Assembly: GCA_024398055.1 (NCBI GenBank)
Contig: CP073749.1
Span: forward strand, 2,728,594 to 2,792,593
DNA length: 64,000 nucleotides
Source of the DNA: a bacterium SCSIO 12741
Lineage (GTDB): Bacteria > Bacteroidota > Bacteroidia > Flavobacteriales_G > Salibacteraceae
Reading direction: 5' to 3'
Shown here: in pieces, positions 6,647-11,694 of the stretch
How the letters are laid out: each line of letters opens with the position of its first letter
Numbering within the stretch: position 1 is the first letter of the stretch
Made by a program: the position numbers and the translations under genes
Notes under the pieces: model-generated
What the model was told of the DNA's origin: nothing
Database searches by the model: none
What the model saw: only the letters and a program-made list of their open reading frames with translations

Positions 6647-7903
6647 ATGTCAACGAAACGATCTGACCTATGGAAGGCTCTTGGACCGGGCCTGTTGTAC
6701 GCCGGTGCTGCGGTAGGTGTTTCCCACCTGGTTCAATCCACTCGGGCTGGAGCCCAGTTTGGTTATGCCCTCATTTATGCTCTGGTGCTGGCCAATTTGG
6801 TGAAGTATCCCTTTTTTCTAATGGGGCCTCAATATACCGCTGCCACCGGTGAGAGTTTGTTAGCGGGTTACAAGAAATTAGGAAATTGGGCGGTTTGGTC
6901 TTTCCTCGTGCTCACCATCCTAACCATGTTCTTTGTTATCGCCGCCATTGCGGTGGTTACGGCTGGTTTGGCTGGTCATCTATTACCCTGGTCTTTTGAT
7001 CCGGTAGTTTGGTCCATAGGCCTCACGGTTTTCTGCGCACTCATTCTTCTGGTAGGTAAGTATAGTCTCCTGGACAGAATGATTAAATGGGTCATTCTCA
7101 TTTTATCGGTTACTACTCTGGTTGCCTTTTTCTCTTCCTTTGGTTGGAGCGCTGAAAAGGTGGGGACTCCATTATCTTTTTCATTTAAAGACCAGGCCCA
7201 TTTACTGTTTCTATTTGCGTTTATTGGATGGATGCCGGCTCCTATGGACATCTCGATTTGGCACTCGGTTTGGGCCGAGACAAGAAACAAACTCACTGGT
7301 CATCAAGCCTCACCGCGTCAAGCCAGATTCGATTTTAATGTAGGCTTTATCGGAACGGCTCTTTTGGCCATTTGCTTTTTGGTGTTAGGCGCCCGGATGT
7401 TTTACGGTACAGGAAACGAATTGGAGGTGAAATCTTTGGCTTTTGCTGGTCAGTTGATTGACATGTACACCACCTTGCTTGGGCCGGTCTTTTTCTGGGT
7501 AATTGCTCTTGCGGCTTTTACGACGATGTTTAGCACCACACTCACTTGTTTAGATGCTTTTCCACGAGTACTTAGTGAGGCCAGTGGATTATTGACAAGT
7601 CGAAAGGAGGAGGGCAACAAGAAAACCTACCCTTTGTTTATGTTGGTCCTGGTAGCTGGAACCATCTTGTTCATTCTGTTTTTGCTGGGCAATATGGGGC
7701 AGATGGTCGATTTGGCGACTACCTTATCCTTTCTTACTACTCCCTTTTTGGCCCTACTCAATTTCCTGGCCATTCGACAAGCTGAAAAAGCGGGCCATCT
7801 GCGTATGAATCCTCTATTAAAGGGATTGAGTTACGTTGGATTTCTCGTGTTGATCGGAATGGCTATCTGGTATCCTTTTATCCGATTTGGAATGGCCGGA
7901 TAA
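6647..7903 (+). CDS. Nramp-family divalent metal transporter, non-canonical
   Basis: A 418-residue inner-membrane protein with about eleven hydrophobic segments and the overall Nramp (NRAMP/MntH) architecture, which imports divalent cations with protons. The first segment opens ALGPGLLYAGAAVGVSH (residues 11-27), where classical members have DPGN. The sixth segment reads GWMPAPMDISIW (from about residue 193), where classical members have the methionine of the MPH motif. The metal-coordinating residues therefore differ, and the substrate may not be manganese or iron. It stands alone on this strand and ends flush with a convergent gene at 7904. Confidence 0.8.
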   Translation: MSTKRSDLWKALGPGLLYAGAAVGVSHLVQSTRAGAQFGYALIYALVLANLVKYPFFLMGPQYTAATGESLLAGYKKLGNWAVWSFLVLTILTMFFVIAAIAVVTAGLAGHLLPWSFDPVVWSIGLTVFCALILLVGKYSLLDRMIKWVILILSVTTLVAFFSSFGWSAEKVGTPLSFSFKDQAHLLFLFAFIGWMPAPMDISIWHSVWAETRNKLTGHQASPRQARFDFNVGFIGTALLAICFLVLGARMFYGTGNELEVKSLAFAGQLIDMYTTLLGPVFFWVIALAAFTTMFSTTLTCLDAFPRVLSEASGLLTSRKEEGNKKTYPLFMLVLVAGTILFILFLLGNMGQMVDLATTLSFLTTPFLALLNFLAIRQAEKAGHLRMNPLLKGLSYVGFLVLIGMAIWYPFIRFGMAG

Positions 7904-8671
7904 TTACCAGGGGATCACCTTGATTCCAACCACCATGACCCGAGCTTTTGGGGCTTCTCCCTCAGCCCAGTAATCGGTAAGACTGTAATTGCCAAACAAG
8001 TGAAAGTTTCCATAACCAATGCGAACCGTAGCAGTGGCTCTCCAGGGGTTTTGATGCATGTTGGATTTACGGCGTATGGTGTTGCAAATTTCACCATCCC
8101 AGAATTTGATCTTTTGTTTTCCCGTCAATCGGTAGCCGAGTATTACACCTGCTGCAATGTGAAAAGACGAAGAGTTGTATTGAGATGTATTTACTCCCAG
8201 AAGCAAGGGAACTGTTACCCAGCTATTTTTCATGTTATTGTTACGGTAGCCGAATACGGTATCCGTTCTTAGGGTCATGGAGTCACCTTCTGATACCATA
8301 AGGTCGTTTCCTTTGAGCTGAAAATTGTAGTAATCTAACCCAATTCCAACCACTCCTTTGAAGTACTCCCCAACAATAGGAATGCCTTGCTCATAAATAT
8401 TGACTCCGAAGTAAAAGGAGCGACCATAATCCAGTTGCATGCCTTTGAAACCCGCTGGAGGTACATCCGTTCCATCCTCATAGATCAAGGAGTTGATACC
8501 GATATCCAATCCCTGCCAATGCTTGTTTTTTCGATCCTGCCATTCTTCCCAGGAATAATCGAAATTCATTCGATTGTCATCCAGGTTGATGTCACCACCA
8601 CCGGGGTGTGTTTGTGATTTTAAGACAGGTGAAATAAGGAGTGCTGCAAGTAGAAAAAATAAGGTTCTCAT
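7904..8671 (-). CDS. Secreted outer-membrane beta-barrel protein, unknown role
   Basis: A 255-residue protein with a signal peptide ending near PVLKSQ, a short polar N-terminal stretch (HPGGGDINLDDN), then amphipathic strands with many aromatic residues. It closes with a C-terminal strand MVVGIKVIPW typical of outer-membrane barrels. The start lies 47 bases after the stop of the bufferin partner gene at 8719, on the same strand, so it may be co-transcribed. A 7-bp inverted repeat sits between them at 8682-8699. I recognise no family with confidence. Confidence 0.65.
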   Translation of the reverse strand: MRTLFFLLAALLISPVLKSQTHPGGGDINLDDNRMNFDYSWEEWQDRKNKHWQGLDIGINSLIYEDGTDVPPAGFKGMQLDYGRSFYFGVNIYEQGIPIVGEYFKGVVGIGLDYYNFQLKGNDLMVSEGDSMTLRTDTVFGYRNNNMKNSWVTVPLLLGVNTSQYNSSSFHIAAGVILGYRLTGKQKIKFWDGEICNTIRRKSNMHQNPWRATATVRIGYGNFHLFGNYSLTDYWAEGEAPKARVMVVGIKVIPW

Positions 8672-8681
8672 ATCTGAATTT

Positions 8682-8699
8682 TTACCTTAACGAAGGTAA
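8682..8699. repeat. Perfect 7-bp inverted repeat upstream of the barrel gene
   Basis: TTACCTT and AAGGTAA are separated by AACG. The right half overlaps a weak -7 match (minus strand TACCTTCG). It could be an operator or an mRNA stem-loop. There is no T-run, so it is not a good intrinsic terminator. Confidence 0.4.
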
Positions 8700-8718
8700 C
8701 CAATTCCGATGCTGCGGC

Positions 8719-9492
8719 CTATCCTTTTAAGGGGAATCCAAGAAGAAATTTTCGGGAACGAAGGAGCTCTATAAAGGGCTGTGACTGTTCAAACAAAAAG
8801 TCTGAATCGCTAACGCCGAAGGAGGCACCTGCACGAATTAAGGCTTCTCCCAGGTGGTTGGCCGTAGCACTTAGCTGTTCCAAGGCTTGAAAAAAGAGAG
8901 GCGATAAGGCCATAAACTGGGCAGATCCTGAATCGGGATCTCTAAGAATGAGCAGGTGGTATTCTCCAGGTTGGAGAGCCGCGTCTTCCGCTTTTACCTG
9001 ATGAAATGGGTAGGAGATAGTGAGTAGACGATGATGGGGATTGCATACCACTGGATCCGTTCTCCAATCACCGCTCTCATGGTAGACTTCCACGGGTTGA
9101 TCTTCTTCGCAATACACTTCTATTTCTGTCCATTCAAAAAAGACCAGTTCTTCCAGGTAAGGATAGTTTTCTTTAAGCTCAAATTCATTTTCCCTGAGAT
9201 AAACCACGAGCTCGTAAGGCATTTTCCAAACCTGGTAATTCTGACAAGGGTGAACAGCAAAAAAACGTTGAACAAGTCCATTCCACTCCTCTTTACTGAG
9301 AATACGAAAGGTGACAGGATAGGCCGTTCTTAGGGTGTCGTAAGCGATGTTATAGACCAAACGGCGGTAATGGGGCAATCGATCAGGAGAAACCCCGGGC
9401 ATATCGGTAGCTTCACCAGTGCGGCAGTAGTTAGCCAATTCGGATTGCCAATGACGGGTATCGTCGCTTAATGGGTGGGTGATTTCTGCCAT
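8719..9492 (-). CDS. DUF2063 (BufC/HvfC-type) partner of the MNIO enzyme
   Basis: A 257-residue protein with the N-terminal DUF2063 signature: LANYCRTGE, then YRRLVYNIAYDTLRTAYPV, with FFAVHPCQNYQVWKMPYEL following. Family members bind the leader of the precursor peptide and hand it to the DUF692/MNIO enzyme encoded next door. The reading frame extends to 9546, but the start MAEITHPLSDD at 9492 is preferred; it overlaps the end of the DUF692 gene by 25 bases, indicating translational coupling. It is the last gene of the bufferin-type operon. A predicted DNA-binding role, once attached to this family name, is not supported by context. Confidence 0.85.
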   Translation of the reverse strand: MAEITHPLSDDTRHWQSELANYCRTGEATDMPGVSPDRLPHYRRLVYNIAYDTLRTAYPVTFRILSKEEWNGLVQRFFAVHPCQNYQVWKMPYELVVYLRENEFELKENYPYLEELVFFEWTEIEVYCEEDQPVEVYHESGDWRTDPVVCNPHHRLLTISYPFHQVKAEDAALQPGEYHLLILRDPDSGSAQFMALSPLFFQALEQLSATANHLGEALIRAGASFGVSDSDFLFEQSQPFIELLRSRKFLLGFPLKG

Positions 9493-10304
9493 GCTTTTTG
9501 ACCTATGGATCGTAATCGACTCAATTCGTTTTGTAAAATCGGCCAATCGGGAATGTTGAAGTCGCGTTCCAACAATACCGGAACCGGATTAAGTTTGGGC
9601 AGGGTTTCTTCAAATAGCTGATACACCGGATCAATGATGTTTTGCCCATGAGTATCAATAATGAGGTCCGGAGCTACTTGTTCGTGCCCAGCCATGTGGA
9701 TGTAGGCCACCCGGTCAAGAGGAAGGGCGTTGATGTAATCGGTGCTTGAATAAGTATGGTTAAAGCTGTTTACATAAACGTTATTAACGTCGAGTAGCAA
9801 ACGGCAGTCAGATTGATTCAGAATCGCCGAAACGAATTCCTCTTCTTTCATTTCCGGAGCCAGTGGAGTGTAGTAACTCACGTTTTCCAGAATAAGTGGC
9901 CTTTCCAAAAAATCCTGTACCACACGAATGCGTTCCGCAATGTGATCCACAGCATCTTGGCGAAAGGGGATGGGGAGCAAATCATACAGGTGAGCGTTGT
10001 CGCATTTGCTGTAGGATAAATGCTCAGAATACAACGACACCTGATAGTGATCCAGAAACTTCTTGAGTTCGTTCAGAAAGTCCATATCGAGCGGATCCGG
10101 ACTTCCAATAGAAAGGGAAAGACCATGGCAAACCAAAGGATATTTTTCTACTGCTTCATCCAGTTTTTTTCTCCAATATCCGCCCAGTCCCATCCAGTTT
10201 TCGGGAGCAACTTCAATGAAGTCAGGCTTTCCGTCTTCCAGTGAGATTATTTCATCGGCGATATCTCGCCGAAAACCAATACCTGTTCCTGTGATTGTAT
10301 TCAT
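9468..10304 (-). CDS. DUF692 / MNIO multinuclear iron oxidase (BufB/HvfB-type RiPP enzyme)
   Basis: A 278-residue TIM-barrel protein of the DUF692 family (multinuclear non-heme iron-dependent oxidative enzymes). Relatives install heterocycle-type modifications on cysteines of small secreted peptides. Visible family features are GTGIGFRRD at the start, FIEVAPENWMG, CHGLSLSIGSPDPL (first His ligand region), YSEHLSYSK, LILENVSYYT, LLLDVNNVYVNSFNH, YIHMAGHE and LLERDFNIPDW. The frame allows a start at 10325, but that codon lies inside the hairpin at 10312-10353, so MNTITGTG at 10304 is used. The substrate is almost certainly the Cys-repeat peptide encoded upstream at 10375-10770. Confidence 0.9.
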   Translation of the reverse strand: MNTITGTGIGFRRDIADEIISLEDGKPDFIEVAPENWMGLGGYWRKKLDEAVEKYPLVCHGLSLSIGSPDPLDMDFLNELKKFLDHYQVSLYSEHLSYSKCDNAHLYDLLPIPFRQDAVDHIAERIRVVQDFLERPLILENVSYYTPLAPEMKEEEFVSAILNQSDCRLLLDVNNVYVNSFNHTYSSTDYINALPLDRVAYIHMAGHEQVAPDLIIDTHGQNIIDPVYQLFEETLPKLNPVPVLLERDFNIPDWPILQNELSRLRSIGQKAWQKSPTH

Positions 10305-10356
10305 GTAAAAAAGGCCCTTTGGCATTCCGATTTTACCGGAAGCAAAAGGGCCTCGT
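10305..10356 (-). terminator. Attenuator-like hairpin between precursor and MNIO genes
   Basis: On the minus strand, AGGCCCTTT pairs perfectly with AAAGGGCCT. An inner stem TTCCG/CGGAA lies in the loop, and six T follow directly (GGCCTTTTTT). It stands between the precursor stop at 10375 and the enzyme start at 10304. It should end most transcripts after the precursor and let a fraction through, giving excess substrate over enzyme. Confidence 0.75.
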
Positions 10357-10374
10357 ATTAAAGTTTATTTGAGA

Positions 10375-10770
10375 TTAGTGAGAGCCGCACTTGCCTTCTC
10401 CACACTTACCTTCACCGCATTTGTGTTCTTGAGTTTTACCTTCTTTGGCTTTCTCATCAGACTTAGCCTTCTCGTCCGATTTACTCTCTTTGGATTCAGC
10501 TTTCTTATCCTCTCCGGATTTGCCTTCACCACACTTGCCTTCACCGCATTTTCCTTCGCCACATTTCAGCTCAATTTCGCTGTTGTTCATCATTACAGGA
10601 GTATCGAATGGGTTGTTCAATTGAATCAACTCACTTCTCAACTCTGCCCCTGATCCGAGGTCTTGTACTTGAAACAATTCACCAGCTTGAGCAGGATTTG
10701 CCAACGCACCCAAAGTCAGGGTACCTGTTGCTATGGCAGCAACTTTTCCTAAGTTCTTTTTGCTTTTCAT
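10375..10770 (-). CDS. Bufferin-type (BufA/HvfA-like) Cys-repeat RiPP precursor
   Basis: A 131-residue protein. Residues 1-29 form a signal peptide (basic MKSKKNLGK, hydrophobic core, AQA cleavage site). Residues 30-66 form a conserved leader-like region (GELFQVQDLGSGAELRSELI). Then comes a CGEGK repeat block with Cys at 70, 75 and 80 and a degenerate fourth repeat with Ser85, a Lys/Glu/Ser-rich linker (86-115), and a second block with Cys at 118, 123 and 128, ending GSH. EGKCG repeats are the sites modified by MNIO enzymes in bufferins and HvfA, which bind copper in the periplasm. The longer frame from 10875 is rejected because it lacks a signal peptide at its start. It is the first gene of the operon. 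Confidence 0.85.
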   Translation of the reverse strand: MKSKKNLGKVAAIATGTLTLGALANPAQAGELFQVQDLGSGAELRSELIQLNNPFDTPVMMNNSEIELKCGEGKCGEGKCGEGKSGEDKKAESKESKSDEKAKSDEKAKEGKTQEHKCGEGKCGEGKCGSH

Positions 10771-10920
10771 CACGCTTATTATTTTTAAATTATCACGATA
10801 ACGGAAGGCTAAAGTTGATAAATCGTGTAAGTAAGTATTGTCTTTAAAAGTACAAAATGGAGATATAACCACCAAGGGCTGGCGATTTTCAGACTATTTC
10901 ACAAAACTGCAGAGGGAGCT

Positions 10921-11694
10921 TTATTGCTCAGCTGGTGCGTTCTGTTTCTGGCACTCTAATACGGCTTTAACGATGTCGTATTCGGCGGCTCGATAAACGA
11001 AGTCATCTTCCAAAGGACAGTTCTTCATGAAGGCTGCGGCGTCAGAATCGGATTCAATTCCCGTAATCTTTTTGACAACGTCAATGTTGTACTTCCGTTG
11101 AATTTCACGCTCACGAGCATTAGTCTCCTTAGCCTTGGACAGTTTCTTTTTTTCCTTCGCTTCCTTGCTGAACTTATTATATAGGAAGGTAATCGGTGAG
11201 CCTAAGGATATATGCGCGTTCAAATCGGTGGGGACATCTTCAAGCGTCTTAGGTTGATCTTTGTACTCAAAGATTTCAACTTCCTTCCCTTCGATTTCCC
11301 TGGTCTTAAACTCATCCGCAAATTCGTCTTTCGATCCGAAAGGATTTACATTAACCGGATTCAGTACATAAACCTCAGGCTCCATGAATACGGTAATTTC
11401 GATCGCATCCGGAATAAACAGACTTTGGGTAAAAATCAGCTTATCCTTAAAACCAATAGACGAGAGCTCAATCGTGTCTCCTTGCCGATAGGGGAGGATA
11501 AATGTTCCATCCGTATAGGAATGAGTTGCGTGTCCGGTATTGTTGTTCACCACATGCACTCCCGCCAATCGGGTAGAATCCTTGGTGCTTATGATTTTGG
11601 CTTTCAGTAATTTGATTTGAGCGGATCCCGAAAATGCGATACCCACAAAAAGCAGTATGGTACTGAAAATAATGGTATTTCTGCGGCTAATCAT
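10921..11694 (-). CDS. Secreted carboxypeptidase-regulatory-like domain protein
   Basis: A 257-residue protein with a signal peptide ending FSGSAQ. It is followed by a CarboxypepD_reg-like beta-sandwich at about residues 30-105 (KAKIISTKDSTRLAGVHVVN, then TDGTFILPYRQGDTIELSSIGF). The rest is charged and helical (KFSKEAKEKKKLSKAKETNA), with no enzyme motif. The domain is common at the N terminus of Bacteroidota surface proteins and TonB-dependent receptors; here it stands without a barrel, so the protein is probably periplasmic. It lies between the SPOR-protein genes and the bufferin operon, all on the minus strand. Confidence 0.75.
   Translation of the reverse strand: MISRRNTIIFSTILLFVGIAFSGSAQIKLLKAKIISTKDSTRLAGVHVVNNNTGHATHSYTDGTFILPYRQGDTIELSSIGFKDKLIFTQSLFIPDAIEITVFMEPEVYVLNPVNVNPFGSKDEFADEFKTREIEGKEVEIFEYKDQPKTLEDVPTDLNAHISLGSPITFLYNKFSKEAKEKKKLSKAKETNAREREIQRKYNIDVVKKITGIESDSDAAAFMKNCPLEDDFVYRAAEYDIVKAVLECQKQNAPAEQ

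Follow-up and report, generated by a model that had tools for sequence, protein, structure and literature searches.

Peptides carrying EGKCG repeats are described as acquiring 5-thiooxazoles and binding copper in the available text of PMC13097082 and PMC13419390. Among the closest described systems is oxazolin (PMC13419390), from nontypeable Haemophilus influenzae, the HvfABC(X) operon of which shares with the operon reported here a signal peptide, six-Cys EGKCG repeats, an HvfB-family MNIO and a DUF2063/RRE partner. Oxazolin differs in having three AEGKCGEGKCG motifs, where the present precursor has two Cys triplets and a charged linker, and its operon includes a DoxX gene (hvfX), where ours has none. 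A terminator-like hairpin after the precursor gene is a feature of the present operon. The present precursor was compared with HvfA through the full-length equivalog model NF050188, which matched residues 66-130 only, and the LGSGxxVR segment discussed below lies outside that comparison.

The captophorins fontiphorin (FonABC) and gonophorin (PMC13097082) also have EGKCG 5-mer repeats and an MNIO-PME1 pair, but come from Pseudomonadota, and FonA has seven sites whereas the present precursor has six Cys. Bulbicupramide (MmrABC) of Microbulbifer (PMC12538549) is likewise encoded by a three-gene cluster and has EGKCG Cys cassettes with Lys stretches between them, although its three cassettes of two Cys contrast with the two triplets found here. 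The bufferins Buf1 (DUF2282) and Buf2 (PMC12452194) are Sec-exported, thiooxazole-bearing, copper-related products of MNIO plus DUF2063 proteins, properties that the present peptide would probably share; their precursors belong to different families, however, and the enzyme described here scores under the BufB cut-off. The published work on EGKCG peptides consulted here centres on Pseudomonadota. The present branch, well conserved, is mainly found in Bacteroidota, and it offers two testable features, a leader motif that stays constant and an internal terminator that recurs from locus to locus, of which a literature search returned no description.

Gene content and class of the operon

The window, i.e., the whole 64-kb stretch of DNA that was analysed, contains on its minus strand genes for an HvfA-type precursor of 131 aa with six Cys (10375..10770), an MNIO enzyme of the HvfB family (278 aa; 9468..10304), and an HvfC-like (PME1) DUF2063 partner (257 aa; 8719..9492), the latter two overlapping by 25 bases. 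The MNIO start was set at the ATG at 10304 by alignment with relatives, the ATG of the open-reading-frame list (10325) falling within the hairpin. The preliminary description had treated the three as one gene set, had given the precursor's length, its Cys at 70/75/80 and 118/123/128 and its Ser85, and had reported no adjacent DoxX gene; all of this was borne out, both DoxX matches in the genome lying beyond the window. The genome has a single PF05114 gene. The CGEGKCG array is not a chance occurrence, since all four coding sites for this pattern genome-wide are in the precursor gene and the reversed-pattern control gave none. The host is taken to be a bacterium related to Salibacter (Flavobacteriales); one family locus (L007) encodes the same precursor as a Salibacter halophilus locus (L034).

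For comparison, we assembled 20 loci of the family together with the best 80 of 544 confirmed relatives, and the counts below therefore describe near relatives. A few of those 80 came from Ignavibacteriota, Oligoflexia or Bdellovibrionales assemblies. Four pairs of loci that share a precursor (L002 and L029, L006 and L030, L007 and L034, L010 and L032) were counted once wherever loci are called distinct.

The MNIO product matched PF05114 (E 2.9e-101) and passed the cut-off of NF003818 (PRK05409, the HvfB family; 392.3 bits against 360), but failed that of the MNIO_BufB model (286.3 bits against 310). Its nearest solved relative is 3bww (E 4.4e-69). Eight residues (H60, H95, E140, D172, H207, D217, H219 and E246), each conserved in 98 of 100 aligned relatives (the best 80 of 544 included), are identical in the 3bww alignment; they represent the conserved His/Asp/Glu positions of the predicted iron site, the iron ligands among them being expected by analogy with MbnB/TglH. 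The partner passed the cut-offs of both PF09836 (60.8 bits, E 1.6e-16) and PF22106 (NGO1945_C, 41.1 bits), and fell below that of the HvfC model NF050145 (121.8 bits against 142). Its AlphaFold2 model (pLDDT 94.8) gave 3dee as the best Foldseek match (E 1.2e-6). TglHI-complex chains ranked next (E 4.7e-6 and 1.8e-5), and MbnABC chains matched weakly (E 0.09-0.11). A DUF2063 relative lies after the MNIO gene in all 96 distinct loci, a set that includes the best 80 of 544.

The precursor passed the HvfA-type EGKCG domain model NF050137 (29.6 bits, cut-off 19.5) and failed NF050188 (23.4 bits, cut-off 95); judged by domain, it is a member of the HvfA family, not HvfA itself. (Run over the host's own genome, the NF050137 profile gave 0 matches, as it did in every control, and is uninformative there.) No DUF2282 (BufA1) domain was found, the sole Pfam match up to E 1 being a chance one (E 0.62), and an identity as a DUF2282 bufferin was dropped on this ground and on the enzyme's score against BufB. 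Thus, of the earlier label "bufferin-type", an MNIO-modified, probably exported Cys-repeat peptide survives as the best reading, but the class is HvfA/HvfB (oxazolin/EGKCG captophorins).

The precursor begins with a putative Sec signal peptide (residues 1-29; 10684..10770, minus strand), recognized by eye from a Lys-rich start, a hydrophobic stretch and an AQA site after which cleavage would occur. Block 1 of the Cys array (KCGEGKCGEGKCGEGK, residues 69-84; 10519..10566, minus) is followed by Ser85 and separated from block 2 (KCGEGKCGEGKCG, residues 117-129; 10384..10422, minus) by a charged linker (residues 85-116; 10423..10518, minus), the charge of which is balanced (10 K/R and 10 D/E over residues 84-116). 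With a block defined as Cys no more than 6 residues apart, the number of blocks ranges from two to six, and that of Cys from four to nine, in all 95 distinct precursors, a set that includes the best 80 of 544 relatives. Two blocks with a charged linker are the rule among the relatives examined; the split array is not the notable trait it had been taken for, and the idea that two triplets are special was dropped. The search for two-triplet precursors in related genomes, proposed at the same time, did find the 3+3 arrangement, in 5 of these 95 (best 80 of 544 included), and a fourth repeat ending in Ser also occurs in the related genomes of L013 and L017. In the AlphaFold2 model, most of the precursor lacks order (mean pLDDT 53.5); a helix spans residues 41-52, and residues 63-66 form a short turn. 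A beta-helix, as modelled for 17-residue-repeat relatives (PMC12452194), was considered for the Cys array but does not appear in this disordered model.

The operon is thus a minimal captophorin operon of HvfABC type and a new member of an already known kind. We consider it probable, with good confidence, that its three genes work as an HvfABC-type RiPP operon of the oxazolin/EGKCG captophorin class, in which the hairpin fixes a high substrate-to-enzyme ratio. The precursor would be produced in excess. The MNIO-DUF2063 pair would bind it, probably through its LGSGxxVR helix as well as its signal peptide, and would convert all six Cys in the two CGEGK triplets into 5-thiooxazoles by a four-electron oxidation of each. 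During Sec export the signal peptide would be cleaved off, leaving a charged, largely disordered peptide that would bind Cu(I) in the periplasm; both the thiooxazole chemistry and the copper role are proposed by analogy with the described systems. Finally, the hairpin would end most transcripts after the precursor, with read-through feeding the overlapping enzyme genes, and the outcome of such partial termination would be much peptide and little enzyme.

Neighbouring genes and the question of copper

DoxX genes lie downstream in 47 of the 96 distinct loci (best 80 of 544 included) and in none of the 20 family loci. More frequent is an ECF sigma factor with a small anti-sigma directly upstream, present in 61 of the 96 (again with the best 80 of 544) and in 9 of the 20 family loci. 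Such loci are mainly from Bacteroidota (L009, L038, L045, L088 and 57 further distinct loci, best 80 of 544 included), and of two anti-sigma proteins compared with NF052368, one scored above the cut-off and one just below. Sigma factors and NrsF are counted among the genes near MNIO, and are also named for Buf1 clusters, in the available text of PMC12452194. No such pair was found beside the operon in the window; a search of the host's own genome for sigma factors of the neighbour type gave five matches, the best at 28% identity, unlinked to the operon. A Bacteroidetes-type promoter pattern was sought upstream of 18 precursors, and its -7 half-site was present in 1 of 18, not that of the window. 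On a plasmid of Acinetobacter ursingii, the annotated sigma/zf-HC2 pair (L110:4117-4919) comes after the DUF2063 gene instead of before the precursor. The upstream neighbour of the present operon encodes a CarboxypepD_reg-like protein, common to 6 of the 96 distinct loci (best 80 of 544 included).

These surroundings bear on whether the peptide might serve another metal, or oxidant stress, instead of copper, which we regard as rather unlikely. No copper genes were found among the six proteins scanned from 6647 to 11694, and a homologue of Nramp-type metal transporters lies two genes from the operon on the opposite strand (6647-7903, plus), which would suit a different metal; this gene, however, recurs in 0 of the 96 distinct loci (best 80 of 544 included), many of them too short to reach its position. 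Even among relatives the copper role is weak: according to the available text of PMC12538549, the EGKCG genes of Microbulbifer did not respond to copper, and their products went undetected with or without added copper, which also points away from copper. Against this stand the copper binding stated for oxazolin (PMC13419390) and that reported for gonophorin (PMC13097082), and we retain copper as the more probable ligand of the present peptide.

A terminator-like hairpin at the precursor/MNIO junction

Folding and an inverted-repeat search identified a terminator-like hairpin directly before the MNIO start codon (10307..10354, minus strand), with its stem at 10311-10354 and a run of six U at 10307-10312. 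The folding energy of the 70-base gap between the two genes is -27.2 kcal/mol; shuffled versions average -11.1, and none of 200 folded as stably (z -6.4). The U run stops 2 bases ahead of the MNIO ATG, so that no promoter fits between. A simple consensus terminator scanner did not include the window's hairpin among its three sites (2.7 expected), likely due to mismatches in the stem and to the scanner's short-stem rules.

We scanned the corresponding junction in relatives with a home-made search for a hairpin plus U-rich tail (threshold ≤ -10 kcal/mol). In loci that include the best 80 of 544, such a hairpin was present at 84 of 99 precursor/MNIO junctions, and at 79 of the 99 no more than one of 40 shuffles matched it. 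Counting distinct loci (best 80 of 544 included), 80 of 95 have it, among them all 20 family loci, 15 are without a strong hairpin, and in 72 of the 95 it lies within 60 bases of the aligned MNIO start. As a control, the junction between anti-sigma and precursor genes gave a hairpin in 3 of 57 readable gaps, seven of which are shorter than 40 bases (3 of 50 without them). In the EGKCG-like operons of Moraxellaceae (L110:2421-2500 and L111:1919-2000), the precursor and MNIO genes are separated by a long hairpin with no clear U run. In lantibiotics, it is an established arrangement to have a terminator between a RiPP precursor gene and the enzyme genes. For MNIO systems, our search of the running text of papers found no description of one: "terminator" is absent from the text of PMC12452194 and PMC13097082, and "hairpin" from that of PMC13097082.

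We read the hairpin as a putative fixed partial terminator, or dosage device, with no clear sign of regulation seen. Two other roles were weighed. In the first, which we hold to be possible but distinctly the less favoured, the chief task of the hairpin would be to end the precursor mRNA or to shield it, and enzyme expression would depend on a separate promoter or on processing. Consistent with this, a terminator-like hairpin (z -4.55) still ends the precursor gene of genome G032, which has no MNIO gene, and one orphan EGKCG gene in each of the MNIO-less genomes G001-G003 has a hairpin after its stop codon. The 2-base spacing in the window and the short distances in relatives noted above, however, leave little room for an intervening promoter, although one could still sit inside the precursor gene. 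In the second, the hairpin is a regulated attenuator at which metal or stress would switch termination and hence enzyme level. The preliminary description had called it a built-in attenuator; the terminator-like hairpin stands, but the name overstates it, and we consider such regulation improbable. Its position is the junction where control would matter, no sigma factor pair adjoins the operon, so that control would have to lie elsewhere, and the inverted-repeat search returned, besides the stem, one weak alternative pairing of the MNIO start region (10300-10310) with the upper stem (10331-10341; 11 nt, 82% complementary). This pairing is short and A/T-rich, though, the hairpin region gave no match in Rfam, and the hairpin sequences vary from locus to locus, which one would not expect of a shared sensor. 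A fixed partial terminator is thus the reading we carry forward.

The leader motif and the linkage of precursor to MNIO

After the signal peptide, alignment revealed the motif LGSGAELR (residues 38-45; 10636..10659, minus strand), which overlaps the longer of the two helices predicted by AlphaFold2. In the general form LG[STN][GA]xx[VLI]R, the first residue of which may also be M, it is present in all 95 distinct precursors (best 80 of 544 included), of a collection in which 91 of 99 had been selected with the motif pattern and eight by eye; a motif-independent search found an EGKCG-type reading frame upstream of MNIO in 93 of 100 loci (best 80 of 544 included). G39 and R45 are invariant in an alignment of 48 of the 95. 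Conversely, the motif is missing from all seven EGKCG proteins of genomes G001-G003 (genus g2), which have no PF05114 match. Its presence beside MNIO and its absence from these MNIO-less proteins make it a candidate enzyme-recognition element. Among five relatives on Pseudomonadota plasmids, two have EGKCG-like precursors (L110, L111) and two have precursors of other types (L112, L114), all without the motif, while no precursor was found at the fifth locus (L113); the motif is therefore a trait of a branch, not of the whole class. Removal of the Sec signal lowers HvfA modification (PMC13419390, which cites a bufferin paper for the signal peptide as leader), and no single leader residue is essential in FonA according to the available text of PMC13097082, which counts against a recognition role for the motif. 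A search of the running text of papers gave no description of the motif.

The precursor and MNIO genes are tightly linked. A precursor lies upstream of MNIO in 99 of 100 loci (best 80 of 544 included), the exception (L047) having about 60 upstream bases. HvfB is encoded by 20 of 35 family genomes, and all 20 have a precursor match. Across 42 genomes of the order, CGEGKCG occurs in 20 of 21 with MNIO vs 4 of 21 without, these relatives not being independent. Close homologues of the peptide without an MNIO neighbour, which the preliminary description had named as evidence against modification, do exist in part, in that 5 of the 35 family genomes lack PF05114 yet contain a precursor-like match; of these, however, one is a decayed remnant, one is shortened and three belong to the motif-less genus. 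The shortened one (G032, L118:3007-3312) retains the motif and three Cys, with no MNIO or DUF2063 gene in the next 1.2 kb, and the remnant (G031, L119:2817-3000) is frameshifted and has lost its core. As G033 and G034, of the same genus, retain precursor, MNIO and DUF2063 genes, loss is apparently in progress there.

The g2 genomes, one of which is a single contig (97% complete), encode three, two and two EGKCG proteins (L115:3623-3985, L121:2268-2756, L122:1837-2154 and L123:1764-2096; on the minus strand, L116:3338-3688, L117:3384-3740 and L120:2345-2710) and no PF05114 gene. EGKCG repeats alone are thus no proof of MNIO modification, and Table 3 of PMC12452194 counts 67 genomes, of 2583, in which EGKCG precursors occur but MNIO does not; yet it is very improbable that the CGEGK peptide binds metal in unmodified form, like a metallothionein, with MNIO acting on something else, given the motif-less state of the seven g2 proteins, the near-constant adjacency of precursor and MNIO, the demonstrated use of EGKCG repeats as MNIO substrates (PMC13097082, PMC13419390) and the conclusion of PMC12452194 that EGKCG precursors without MNIO are very few.

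More broadly, we tentatively suggest, at slightly less than even confidence, that EGKCG captophorins have a branch, mainly in Bacteroidota, with its own recognition helix (LG[STN][GA]xx[VLI]R) on the mature peptide and a branch-wide intercistronic terminator setting the precursor-to-enzyme ratio, and that loss of the enzyme goes with a decaying core or a missing motif. Whether the motif helix binds the MNIO pair, and whether RiPP operons of this class adjust the amount of enzyme through a terminator, are open to test, and the related genomes with EGKCG proteins and no detected MNIO gene provide a natural control.

Further variation was observed among the EGKCG proteins. In each of G001-G003, one copy lies upstream of genes for a Tat-type Gluconate_2-dh3 subunit and a GMC oxidoreductase (by Pfam in L115, by eye in the others); the four other proteins have a lipobox, and one of them has an extra Lys/Cys-rich stretch. 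At five Chitinophaga loci (L042, L060, L090, L092 and L098), the Gly after Cys is replaced by Ser, Ala, Thr or Val, giving the core variants KCSPGK, KCAEGK, KCTPGK and KCVG about 400 bases upstream of MNIO; these precursors retain the leader motif and the MNIO gene, and are natural core variants for specificity tests.
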